NCBI RefSeq assembly: GCF_000280925.3
Contig: NZ_CP012109.1
Location: 8,390,501 to 8,454,500 of the forward strand
DNA: 64,000 bases
Reading direction: 5' to 3'
DNA from: Myxococcus hansupus
GTDB lineage: Bacteria; Myxococcota; Myxococcia; Myxococcales; Myxococcaceae
Positions 2,699 to 43,161 of the stretch are shown here, in pieces. A model generated the notes under the pieces. The model was given only the letters and a program-made list of their open reading frames with translations. It searched no databases and was not told the DNA's origin. Each line of letters opens with the position of its first letter. The first letter of the stretch is position 1. The translations under genes and the position numbers were made by a program.

Positions 2699-3970
<1,272 letters not shown>

Positions 3971-4013
3971 GCCGCCTGGGGCCGGGCTATGCAACAGCAT
4001 CCCGGCCCCGACG

Positions 4014-5321
<1,308 letters not shown>

Positions 5322-39284: not shown

Positions 39285-39713
39285 ATGACGACGCCCAGAG
39301 TCCGAGAAATACGGTTTCATCCGCTTCGCACGCGACGAGAATGTCCTCCACGCTGGGACGCCCGCACGGGTGCGCCCACGCCCGCGCGGCCCCGGAGCCG
39401 CGCCAACACAGTCGAGGCGGACACGCCGAGGAAGCGGCCCATCTCCGCCAACGCGCTGGTGGACTACCTGGCGCGCAGCCATGCGCTCGGCGCGACGGAA
39501 GGCCCGGTGGGAGCTCGCGCGCTCAACCCCGCGCTCCGGCCACTCATGGAGGCGCTCCACCACGTGCTCGCGGGCGGCGAGGTGGCGGTCCACATCGTCC
39601 GGCCCGGAAACGCGGACCTCGTCGACGAACTGAACCACCGCGCCGAGCGCGCCACCGAAGCGTCCACCACCCTTGGCATGGCGGCGGGTGACACCCTCTC
39701 CGCCACCGTATGA
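39285..39713 (+). CDS. small hypothetical protein, first gene of the kinase/isoprenoid operon
   Basis: About 142 residues if started at ATG 39285 (GGGGGGAG upstream). The first ~45 residues are Arg/Pro-rich and disordered; the rest is a helical domain (SANALVDYLARSHALG, PLMEALHHVLAGGEVAVHIVRPGNADLVDELN). No family recognised. The stop overlaps the kinase start by 4 bp (ATGA). A later start that omits the basic N-terminus cannot be excluded. It could be a small partner or signal precursor for the kinase, but nothing in it proves this. Confidence 0.55.
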   Translation: MTTPRVREIRFHPLRTRRECPPRWDARTGAPTPARPRSRANTVEADTPRKRPISANALVDYLARSHALGATEGPVGARALNPALRPLMEALHHVLAGGEVAVHIVRPGNADLVDELNHRAERATEASTTLGMAAGDTLSATV

Positions 39714-41068
39714 GTGTGCGCTCCGCCGGACGGCAGGCCGTGCGGGCCTCGTTCCGGCGGTGGACACGCGCCCAGAACGCCCCGGAGGTGATGGCCGCCG
39801 CGGCCCTGGGCCCGTGGCTGGCGCTGTGCGCCCTGGTGCCCTGCATGCTCGCCATGGCCGCCTGGGCGCCGGGCGCGCGGAGCTTCTTCGGTCTCCACTT
39901 CGGGAAGGCGCTCCTGTGCGCCGCCCCGATGCTGCTCAGCGGCGTCATCTTCTCGCTGGTGCACCGGAAGCGGCGCCGCATCGAACCCTGGGGGTGGGCG
40001 TGGCTCGCCGTGGGCGTGGCCGCCATGCACTTCTTCGTGGCCGCGCTGATGGCGATGTCGGCGCTGCCCGGAGCGGCCGTCATTGCCTCGCTGTTCCTCT
40101 TCACCACCGCGTTCCACGGCCGGCTGCACCGGGTGACGCCGCACCAACCCTTCCTCGCGCTGGGCACCGCGCTGGCCCTGGGCCTCGCCCTGCCCCTGCG
40201 CGGCAGCGACGACCACCTGGCCCTCTTCGGCGTCATCGGCCCCGTGGCCCTCACGGCCGAGCTGTACCTGGGCACCTTCGCCGTGCAGCATGACCTGGCC
40301 CGCGCGGACGCCGAGCGCCTGCGCGCCGCCGTGCACGCGCAGCTCCTGGAGCAGCAGGAGCGCGACGTGGGCCGGCTGTCCCAGGCGCTGGCGGAAATCC
40401 TCGGCTACCACCACGACATCGACAACGCGCTCATGGCCGCGGGCAGCGCGGCGGACATGCTGGCCGTGCTGGGCGCGCCCCGCCTGCCGCCGGGCCGCTC
40501 CGAGTTCGAGGAGCTGCTGCGGCGGCTCAACGACAGCCTGACGCAGATTCGGGACATGGTGACGGACGCCCGCACCAAGGGCCGCCGCCACGCGGGCACG
40601 GAGCCCGAGCCGGTGGACCTGTCGCCAGTGCTGGACTCGGTGCAGGCCAGCGTGGGCCTGCGCTTCCCGGACGTGGACATCCAGGTGGAGGTGGAGCAGC
40701 CCCCGTCGCCCTTGCGCGCGCTCATGCGCGGCGGCGCGCCCACGCTGCGCCGCGTGGTGGAGAACCTGGTGCTCAACGCCTGCGAGGGCGACGGCGAGGA
40801 GGGCGCGGCCCGCGTCCACATCCTCGCGCGCGTGGAGCCGCTCAGCGGCCGCCTGGAAGTCACCATCACCGACGACGGACCGGGCTTCCCGCCGGGACAG
40901 CTCGGACGTCCCGCCGAGGCGCTCTACACCAGCAAGGCCCACGCGACGGGCCTGGGCCTCTACACCAGCGAGTGCCTGCTGCGCGCCAGCGGCGGGATGC
41001 TGCACCGGCAGAACGCGTCCGAAGGCGGGGCCGTGCTGCGCATGGTCCTCCCCAGGGAGTACCCATGA
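39710..41068 (+). CDS. multi-pass membrane histidine kinase with divergent H-box
   Basis: 452 residues. About six membrane helices occupy residues ~28-205 with almost no extracellular domain, so the ligand is probably lipidic or intramembrane. A linker coiled coil leads to ILGYHHDIDNALMAAG, where the acceptor His is followed by Asp-x-x-Asn rather than the common HELRTPL. The ATPase domain has VVENLVLNACEG, TDDGPGFP and GLGLYTSECLL. No response regulator is in the operon. Its start overlaps the previous stop and its stop overlaps the next start (ATGA both times). Confidence 0.85.
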   Translation: MSVRSAGRQAVRASFRRWTRAQNAPEVMAAAALGPWLALCALVPCMLAMAAWAPGARSFFGLHFGKALLCAAPMLLSGVIFSLVHRKRRRIEPWGWAWLAVGVAAMHFFVAALMAMSALPGAAVIASLFLFTTAFHGRLHRVTPHQPFLALGTALALGLALPLRGSDDHLALFGVIGPVALTAELYLGTFAVQHDLARADAERLRAAVHAQLLEQQERDVGRLSQALAEILGYHHDIDNALMAAGSAADMLAVLGAPRLPPGRSEFEELLRRLNDSLTQIRDMVTDARTKGRRHAGTEPEPVDLSPVLDSVQASVGLRFPDVDIQVEVEQPPSPLRALMRGGAPTLRRVVENLVLNACEGDGEEGAARVHILARVEPLSGRLEVTITDDGPGFPPGQLGRPAEALYTSKAHATGLGLYTSECLLRASGGMLHRQNASEGGAVLRMVLPREYP

Positions 41069-41802
41069 GCGGCGGCGCCCTGTATCAGGAGTCGCTGCGC
41101 GCGCTCCGCCGGCTCTCGCTGCCGGACGTGTCCGAACGGGACGTGCTGGCCGCGTTGGAGGCGGGGCAGCCGGGCCCGCTCGCCCTCTTCTATGAAGCGG
41201 GCGCGGAGGCCGGCCTGCAGCGCGACGCCCTGATGGCGCGTGGCGCCGGGCTCTTCCTCAGCTTCTGCGCGGGCAACCTCGCCGACGACCTCATCGACGG
41301 CGAATGCACGTACCACGACCCGCCGATGCGCGTGGGGCCGTGCGTGCAGTTCATCCTCCAGAACCTCGCCTTCGCCACGCTGTGTGGCGCGCAGGCGCAG
41401 CTTCCGGGCCCGGTGCTGGCGGAAGCCGTCCGCACCCTGGCGGTGGCCGCCGGGCCCCAGGCGCTGGAGGTGCGCGCGCGGACGTGGACGGCGCCGCTGT
41501 TCCGCCAGGTGGCGGAGGGCATCGCCGGCCAGCAGTGGGCCGCGTACCTGCAGGTGTTGTGGGCGGGCACCGTGCTGGAGACGCGGGCCGCCCTGGCGGG
41601 CCGGGCGCTGGGCGTGGCCGCGCACGTGGCGGAGGACATCCGCTCGCGCGACGTGCGCTTCACCAGCATGCCCGAGGCGGACCGCTACGAAATCGTGGAT
41701 TGGGCGCGCGCCGCCGCGCAGTCGCTGCGCCGCTTGGACCTGCGCTGTCTGGACGCGGCGCTGCGCCGCATCGAGCCGGTGTTGCCAGAGGGGGAATCAT
41801 GA
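41065..41802 (+). CDS. isoprenoid-synthase-like protein with DDLID motif
   Basis: 245 residues, all helical. NLADDLIDGE near residue 75 matches the first Asp-rich motif (DDxxD) of trans-prenyl synthases and terpene synthases; VAEDIRSRDVRF near 193 stands where the second Asp-rich motif should be but is degenerate. Length is shorter than most prenyl synthases (~300) and close to ComQ-like proteins. Chain-length or terpene-cyclising activity cannot be told from sequence. Translational coupling with a membrane kinase and a methyltransferase is the striking part of its context. Confidence 0.6.
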   Translation: MSGGALYQESLRALRRLSLPDVSERDVLAALEAGQPGPLALFYEAGAEAGLQRDALMARGAGLFLSFCAGNLADDLIDGECTYHDPPMRVGPCVQFILQNLAFATLCGAQAQLPGPVLAEAVRTLAVAAGPQALEVRARTWTAPLFRQVAEGIAGQQWAAYLQVLWAGTVLETRAALAGRALGVAAHVAEDIRSRDVRFTSMPEADRYEIVDWARAAAQSLRRLDLRCLDAALRRIEPVLPEGES

Positions 41803-42680
41803 GGGCCGAAGCCGTGGAACCCGAGTGGGTGCGCGACGAGGTGAGCGCGTACTACGAGGCGAAGACGGAGCGGCTGCTCCAACGGTACGGGCCCGGGCCC
41901 CGGGTGCACTACCACTCCGGGCTGGTGGATGTGGTGCCGCCCCCCGGCGCGTCACCCGCGACGCTGCGGGCGACCGTCCACGGCGCGCAGGAGGCAATGC
42001 TGGCGGAGCTGACGCGCGCCGTGGGCCGCTTCCCGGACGGCGGCGAGGTGCTCGACATCGGCTGCGGCCTGGGCGGCGGCTCGCTGTACTGGGCCATGGA
42101 GCACCGCGCCCATGTGACGGCGGTGACGAACGTGCCCTCGCATGTGGCGCTGGTGCGGGGCTTCGCGGAGGTCGCGGGCGTGGGAGCACGCGTGCGCCCG
42201 ATTCTCTGCGACGCCCTGTCGGTGCCGGGCCGTGCCAGCTATGACGCCGTCGTGGCGGTGGAGAGCGCCTGCTACCTGCCTCGCGCCGAATGGTTCCGCC
42301 GCACGCGCGCGCTGCTGAAGCCAGGCGGCCTGGTGGCCATCGCCGACTGCTTCCTCGGCCGCGCCGAGCTGGCCGCGCCCTTCGACCGGTACTGGCGCAC
42401 GCGCATCGGCTCACTGGACGAGTACCTCTCCGCCGCGCACGCCGCGGGGCTGGAGCTGGAGGTGCGCGACGACGTGTCCTCGCGCGTCGTGGGCTTCTGG
42501 TCGCTCACGCTGGAGCTGCTCGTCCATGAGCGGGCCCTGGCCTCCCCCACCCAGCACCCGCTGCGCGCCCTGGCCCGGGCGGGCCGCGGCGAATCCAGCC
42601 GCGAGCACCTGCGCCTGCAACAAGCGCTGATGGACGGTGGCCTGGAGTACGCGCTGCTCGTGCTCCGCCGGCCCGACTGA
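41799..42680 (+). CDS. SAM-dependent C-methyltransferase (sterol/geranyl-PP methyltransferase-like)
   Basis: 293 residues. Motif I EVLDIGCGLGGG, post-I VTAVTNVPSHVALVRGFAEVAG, and ESACYLPRAEWFRRTRALLKPGGLVAIADC follow the plan of the SMT family, which includes sterol, tocopherol and geranyl-diphosphate 2-C-methyltransferases. An N-terminal YYEAKTERLLQRYG and VHYHSGLVDV block, and a closing LEYALLVLRR, fit too. ATG 41799 overlaps the previous stop (ATGA). Beside an isoprenoid-synthase-like gene, a prenyl substrate is the natural guess. Confidence 0.75.
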   Translation: MRAEAVEPEWVRDEVSAYYEAKTERLLQRYGPGPRVHYHSGLVDVVPPPGASPATLRATVHGAQEAMLAELTRAVGRFPDGGEVLDIGCGLGGGSLYWAMEHRAHVTAVTNVPSHVALVRGFAEVAGVGARVRPILCDALSVPGRASYDAVVAVESACYLPRAEWFRRTRALLKPGGLVAIADCFLGRAELAAPFDRYWRTRIGSLDEYLSAAHAAGLELEVRDDVSSRVVGFWSLTLELLVHERALASPTQHPLRALARAGRGESSREHLRLQQALMDGGLEYALLVLRRPD

Positions 42681-42708
42681 GGACACGCGATGCATCCCCC
42701 CGAGGCGA

Positions 42709-42731
42709 GCGCCTGCCCGGTTGGCAGGTGC
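42709..42731 (+). terminator. hairpin after the kinase/isoprenoid/methyltransferase operon
   Basis: GCGCCTGCC (42709-42717) pairs with GGCAGGTGC (42723-42731), nine pairs with one G-U, loop CGGTT. It lies 28 bases after the operon stop. No U-tract. Confidence 0.5.
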
Positions 42732-42825: not shown

Positions 42826-43161
42826 ATGCAGGCATTCAAACGGTGGATGGTGGTGGGTGCAGTGGCCGCGATGGTGGGCGTCACGGGGTGCAGGGAGCAA
42901 AACCGCGACCATCGGGGGACGACGACCACGCCGGGCATGGAGGGCACGGGCGGCAGCGGCCAGGGCACGACGCCGCACCCGAGCGACACCATGGGCGGCA
43001 CCGGCGGCACGGGCCAGGAAATCCAAGGTACCGACGCGGGCACCGGTGGCTCCGGCATGATGGACAACGGCTACGACGCGGGCACCGGCGGCTCCGGCAT
43101 GATGAACGAGGGCCACGACACCATGGACCGGGGCACGCACAGTCCCGACGGCCAGCAGTAG
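42826..43161 (+). CDS. Gly-rich lipoprotein with internal repeat
   Basis: 111 residues. A lipoprotein signal (MVVGAVAAMVGVTGC, mature Cys at 22) is followed by a low-complexity Gly/Thr/Met tail with a tandem unit: DAGTGGSGMMDNG and DAGTGGSGMMNEG. An excellent AGGGAGGA ribosome site precedes ATG 42826. Probably a surface or periplasmic flexible protein; function unknown. Confidence 0.75.
   Translation: MQAFKRWMVVGAVAAMVGVTGCREQNRDHRGTTTTPGMEGTGGSGQGTTPHPSDTMGGTGGTGQEIQGTDAGTGGSGMMDNGYDAGTGGSGMMNEGHDTMDRGTHSPDGQQ

Follow-up and report, generated by a model that had tools for sequence, protein, structure and literature searches.

What does a membrane histidine kinase do when its gene is coupled by start/stop overlaps to genes for isoprenoid-type enzymes? 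This question is raised by a four-gene cassette of Myxococcus hansupus (assembly GCF_000280925.3, contig NZ_CP012109.1, a single-contig genome of 9.49 Mb) in a 64,000-nucleotide stretch at forward-strand positions 8,390,501 to 8,454,500, hereafter the window, from whose first letter all positions are counted. An initial annotation, made from the letters and open reading frames, had described four genes joined pairwise by ATGA and had suggested that the kinase senses or controls a methylated isoprenoid or a prenylated signal. All four reading frames and the three ATGA start/stop overlaps between them are present on one strand at 39285-42680, with the cassette ending at 42680 rather than at the 42731 first given:

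39285..39713, + strand: small protein, 142 aa, conserved part at residues ~55-142, always found with the prenyl-synthase-like gene
39710..41068, + strand: six-transmembrane (TM) histidine kinase, 452 aa, from HATPase_c, hydropathy, and catalytic boxes
41065..41802, + strand: trans-prenyl-synthase-fold protein, 245 aa, from its model fold, D74 D75 L I D78, and a pseudo second motif E190 D191
41799..42680, + strand: predicted C-methyltransferase of the C6-prenyl-diphosphate type (9TB4/BezA), 293 aa, from profile matches, Glu155, and Phe233-Trp234

The answer that we favor, tentatively and at somewhat less than an even chance, is a self-contained make-and-sense isoprenoid unit, built like CqsA/CqsS-LqsR or ComQXPA from other parts. 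Its biosynthetic half is well supported by several independent lines of sequence comparison and structure modeling, and its sensing half we infer from coupling, layout, and precedent. The ATGA overlaps are seen again in most relatives, and ratios of nonsynonymous to synonymous substitution rates (dN/dS; Nei-Gojobori, window versus one relative) rise from 0.16 (methyltransferase) through 0.19 (245-aa protein) and 0.24 (kinase) to 0.42 (small protein); all four are therefore real genes under purifying selection. A sigma-70 promoter scan gave no match, such a scan being uninformative in a GC-rich genome.

The 245-aa protein found no match in Pfam, NCBIfam, or PDB sequence searches. Its AlphaFold (AF2) model, computed with an alignment of 32 relatives (mean predicted local distance difference test score, pLDDT, 95.5), fell among the trans-prenyl diphosphate synthases by Foldseek and VIA-align, with 4wk5 as the best structural match (VIA Z 23.7 over 232 residues at 2.5 Å) and the Escherichia coli farnesyl diphosphate (FPP) synthase 1rqj at VIA Z 23.0, and it has the all-alpha isoprenoid synthase fold. 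The initial annotation had called this DDLID-containing protein isoprenoid-synthase-like and had proposed a comparison of its predicted structure with trans-prenyl synthase folds, on which the claim was to stand or fall; the modelled fold does not refute it. With the trans-isoprenyl diphosphate synthases (PF00348), the protein shares the fold over residues 1-241 (Z 21-24), the first DDxxD, a conserved GQ helix, and a profile match to prenyl synthases of the window's genome and a related one (hhalign, E 7e-6), in which DDLID falls on the first DDxxD and HVAEDIRS on the second motif. The three aspartates of DDLID (residues 74-78), the first aspartate-rich motif (FARM), are retained in 31 of the 32 relatives (D74, D75, and D78), whereas D191 is the sole invariant Asp of the second (SARM), present in all 32; the first position of this pseudo-SARM is never Asp, being mostly Glu (EDxxx) and elsewhere I, Q, K, or A. 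Unlike PF00348 members, the protein is unrecognised by Pfam and NCBIfam, has one Asp in its second motif where chain-elongating enzymes have a second DDxxD, and lacks, in an alignment with prenyl synthases, the GGKRxRP and RRG motifs that bind isopentenyl diphosphate (IPP). An intact first motif, a one-Asp second motif, and missing IPP motifs together suggest that it binds a prenyl diphosphate without IPP elongation. Among proteins of the prenyl-synthase fold, the 245-aa protein and its relatives form a new clade. In another genome, a weak synthase match (L043) that might have marked a second cassette proved to be a canonical polyprenyl synthase.

The fourth protein is a S-adenosylmethionine (SAM) methyltransferase by domain search. 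The METHYLTRANSFERASE profile matched the C6-FPP methyltransferase 9TB4 at E 6e-78 and the geranyl diphosphate (GPP) C6-methyltransferase BezA (PDB 7FBH) at E 4e-71, with others far behind. The earlier label, sterol methyltransferase (SMT)- or GPP-methyltransferase-like, thus keeps its methyltransferase part, while the protein is closer to C6-type prenyl-diphosphate methyltransferases than to the sterol or C2-GPP types. It carries the Rossmann SAM motif, and the residues whose roles in C6 methyltransferases have been described (9TB4 mechanism, PMC12929941) have counterparts: the catalytic Glu165/Glu170 of 9TB4/BezA corresponds to Glu155, and the Phe243-Trp244 wall to Phe233-Trp234. The N-terminal RYGPGPRVHxH motif is also kept. 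Two positions differ, as His194, required in 9TB4, is Cys184 here, and Trp210 of BezA, whose change to Ala lets FPP in (PMC10881772), is Phe195. From these comparisons, the enzyme may methylate GPP or FPP at C6.

How firmly these genes belong together can be read from their distribution. Among 195 Myxococcota genomes, the synthase-like gene was found in 50, the small protein in 46, and the methyltransferase in 56. In a pattern-limited scan of GTDB genomes, every record with the synthase family bore a myxobacterial title except two, an unclassified 'Deltaproteobacteria' metagenome-assembled genome (MAG) and an apparently mislabelled record, and as far as such sequence patterns reach, the cassette appears confined to Myxococcota. 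The latter record, titled Comamonas sp. KCTC 72670 (L047), carries the cassette at 97% identity, matches G073, a genome assigned to the window's genus, and looks like a mislabelled myxobacterial assembly. The initial annotation had made joint conservation in relatives a test of the cassette and had proposed a neighborhood survey across myxobacteria; in that survey, the four genes were found together. Myxococcus, Pyxidicoccus, and Hyalangium share the order small protein-kinase-synthase-methyltransferase, and other lineages include a receiver, as receiver-small protein-kinase-synthase-methyltransferase (L064), receiver-small protein-kinase-synthase (L042), or small protein-kinase-synthase-receiver (L128).

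Fusions and losses tie the genes more closely still. Synthase and methyltransferase are fused in one ~523-aa frame in two separate lineages (L036:2348-3916 and L039:7598-9169, both MAGs). In genus g5, probably Corallococcus, only kinase and methyltransferase are left, the synthase being lost and the SAM motif changed from GCGLGG to GSVLGG, and in genus g2, which has neither kinase nor small protein, the FARM is lost and GCGLGG has become GCVRGG. Each of the 46 genomes that encode the small protein also has the synthase-like gene; the four with a synthase and no small protein are G133, whose contig ends inside the gene, G113, with an in-frame core deletion, and two g2 genomes, in which the first Asp motif of the synthase is destroyed. 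The two enzymes thus share their fate, whether fusion or decay, and the small protein shares that of the synthase. In the Myxococcus genome G113 (L127, 889-1383), the kinase (His to Gln), synthase, and methyltransferase frames are still open beside the in-frame loss of the small-protein core. The synthase-like proteins without DDxxD in the two g2 genomes (L037 and L038, from G028 and G008) have a dN/dS of 0.18 between them, on few differences and two genomes, and may have been preserved for something other than catalysis. Directly downstream of the cassette, the window encodes a small glycine-rich lipoprotein-like protein with GTGGSGM repeats (42826-43161), and genus g5 has a similar gene in the equivalent position.

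The small protein has its conserved part in the last ~88 residues (LGAxEG, HHVLAGGEVEV) and is ~100 aa long in most relatives, the first ~50 residues in the window being an extension common to close Myxococcus relatives. It has no Pfam match and no credible PDB match by profile. Its model is a helix/hairpin/helix/helix with core pLDDT of about 90-97 and a disordered C-terminal tail, and a fold search matched no known fold (best Z 3.3). A reading of ..LHHVLAGG as a double-glycine leader was dropped because the modelled folded domain spans it. Across 23 small proteins, the tail holds no universal Cys or other nucleophile, and 22 have no Trp in their last 30 residues, the exception having one 17 residues from the end.

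The kinase was described at first as a six-helix histidine kinase without a large sensor domain, and hydropathy averaged over 15 relatives agrees, giving six TM segments and no additional sensor domain. It matches HATPase_c (Pfam, E 1.2e-14) and gave no HisKA_3 match. In the window, all boxes are intact: the H-box with His235 (YHHDIDNALM), the N-box ENLVLNACEG, G1 DDGPGF, and G2 GLGLYTSE. Several relatives have Gln, Glu, or Asn in place of the phospho-acceptor His, with the N, G1, and G2 boxes mostly retained; on a 29-row tree, these His-less kinases fall, as read by eye, into four separate clusters within the His-bearing kinases, the forced minimum computed by tool being lower. This loss was seen only where an adjacent receiver is absent. 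The kinase was also said to lack a response regulator, which holds for the window operon, whereas in relatives (L031-L035, L042, L064, and L128, i.e., Archangium and three other lineages) single-domain Response_reg proteins, some slightly under the Pfam cut-off, adjoin the cassette. None was seen near L036, L039, or L040, and a search of the window genome for an ortholog of the cassette receiver gave no match at E 0.001. The closest paralog of the kinase in that genome (L090, G000:C1:183073-184155) adjoins a divergent response regulator with an HTH-like C-terminal end, in what looks like an ActS/RegB-ActR/RegA-like pair, and in L064 a second, soluble-looking histidine kinase (2888-4087, minus strand) is divergent to the receiver heading the cassette.

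Drawing these parts together, the favored make-and-sense unit would operate as follows. The methyltransferase, judging by homology, would add a methyl group at C6 of geranyl or farnesyl diphosphate; the prenyl-synthase-fold protein would hold that diphosphate through DDxxD and Mg2+ and ionise it without IPP elongation, and the allylic cation would pass to another fate, by closing a ring, reacting with water, or joining an acceptor. The synthase-like protein would have the small protein as an obligate partner and perhaps as that acceptor. The six-TM kinase would detect the lipophilic product, still in or near the membrane, and in the ancestral layout would phosphorylate the neighboring single-domain response regulator, a regulator that would no longer be adjacent in Myxococcus. 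Relative to the initial interpretation, the link between the enzymes is firmer than guessed, given the fusions and joint decay, while its signaling part is still what we infer. A more specific version, in which Gram-negative myxobacteria sense themselves through a C6-methylated isoprenoid, free or on the small protein, so that the cassette is a functional ComQXPA counterpart with its own synthase-like protein, C6-type methyltransferase, six-TM kinase, and lone receiver, we regard as doubtful.

Several observations weigh against a make-and-sense unit. Archangium, with the order receiver-small protein-kinase-synthase, has no methyltransferase in the cassette and no close match to one elsewhere, and L060 (small protein-synthase-methyltransferase) has no adjacent kinase; neither gene is therefore indispensable. 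No export step was found, and the receivers are lone domains without an output domain. Loss of the IPP site would be equally expected of a plain cyclase. Further, the enzymes are intact in all but one of the ~4 lineages whose kinase has lost its His, and biosynthesis there is therefore independent of phospho-signaling, which for those lineages favors plain biosynthesis or a pseudokinase. Plain biosynthesis would mean ordinary, regulated homoterpenoid production, in which methyltransferase and non-canonical cyclase make a methylated terpenoid (a volatile, membrane lipid, or defence compound) and the kinase times expression or reports membrane state without sensing the product. Pairs of methyltransferase and terpene synthase are known in bacteria (PMC11070974, PMC12929941), and L060 keeps the small protein and both enzymes with no kinase beside them. 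However, no canonical terpene synthase is involved, Archangium retains the kinase-synthase-receiver module where the methyltransferase is missing, the start/stop overlaps couple kinase and enzyme translationally, and even His-less kinases are held under purifying selection (dN/dS 0.22-0.33); we consider this explanation unlikely.

That continued selection, with the ~4 independent His losses from kinases that mostly keep their N, G1, and G2 boxes and the absence of a receiver beside the cassette throughout Myxococcus, could also be accounted for if the kinase were now a pseudokinase or a scaffold in the membrane, anchoring the enzymes or controlling them allosterically, with phospho-signaling an ancestral relic. 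Yet in the window and in close relatives the kinase retains the His and every box, and Myxococcus has many orphan kinases; we give this account very little weight. Improbable, too, in our judgment, is a ComQXPA-like prenylated protein signal, in which the synthase-like protein would put a (C6-methylated) geranyl or farnesyl group on the small protein for processing and sensing by the kinase. It would suit the four functional parts, receivers in relatives included, the ComQ-like one-Asp pseudo-SARM, the strict co-occurrence of the small protein with an intact synthase, and the modelled folded domain with its disordered tail, but that tail offers neither a C-terminal Trp in 22 of the 23 proteins nor a universal Cys or nucleophile, the first pseudo-SARM residue is not the one that ComQ requires, and the small protein shows far stronger conservation than the hypervariable ComX (PMC4008528).

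The chemical signals of social myxobacteria are only partly known, and the cassette suggests that a myxobacterial cell makes a terpene-like compound and senses it too. If this is true, Gram-negative bacteria would have a terpene-type signal whose maker belongs to a family outside the domain libraries used, and homoterpene biosynthesis would gain a kinase-coupled type. Even on a plain biosynthetic reading, there is a new clade of prenyl-synthase-fold enzymes whose expected substrate is a methylated prenyl diphosphate. With four compact genes in culturable Myxococcus species, the idea is directly testable.

Finally, how does the cassette compare with known systems? A search limited to an available set of literature found no paper on it, nor any that links a myxobacterial kinase to an isoprenoid signal. 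Like bacterial C16 homoterpene clusters, it sets a prenyl-diphosphate C-methyltransferase beside a class I isoprenoid-fold protein, with the difference that this partner is kinase-coupled and not a canonical terpene synthase; for this reason, and because the sole PF19086 match of the window genome lies elsewhere, it does not count as a standard homoterpene cluster. The initial comparison with ComQXPA gains from the receiver in relatives and the one-Asp second motif, as both are operons with a synthase-fold protein (intact FARM, one-Asp SARM), a small protein, and a multi-pass kinase, and it fails at the small protein, which has no counterpart of the C-terminal Trp that defines ComX, found there within the final 5-10 residues. 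ComQ has an intact first motif and a pseudo second one in which a single Asp is essential, preceded by N or G (NDxxx or GDxxx; PMC5331326), where the cassette has mostly E and otherwise I, Q, K, or A. ComP has 8-10 TM segments and HisKA_3, against six and HATPase_c only; the cassette receiver has no DNA-binding domain; a C6-type methyltransferase is added; and ComX is hypervariable. The published ComQXPA census reported none outside Firmicutes (PMC4008528), whereas the host here is a myxococcote. Because the ComX Trp, the NDxxx motif, and the kinase type all fail, the cassette is, on these sequence features, not a member of ComQXPA.

The nearest likeness for the sensing half, one of layout only, is to CqsA/CqsS of Vibrio and LqsA/LqsS/LqsR of Legionella, in which six-TM kinases without a periplasmic domain, encoded beside a synthase gene, are receptors of lipophilic signals (PMC3376566, PMC4821796). 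As in the cassette's relatives, a response regulator without known output domain occurs in some of these clusters (PMC3376566). Their synthase is a pyridoxal phosphate (PLP) enzyme for alpha-hydroxyketones with no small protein beside it, whereas the cassette pairs its six-TM kinase with an enzyme of isoprenoid fold.

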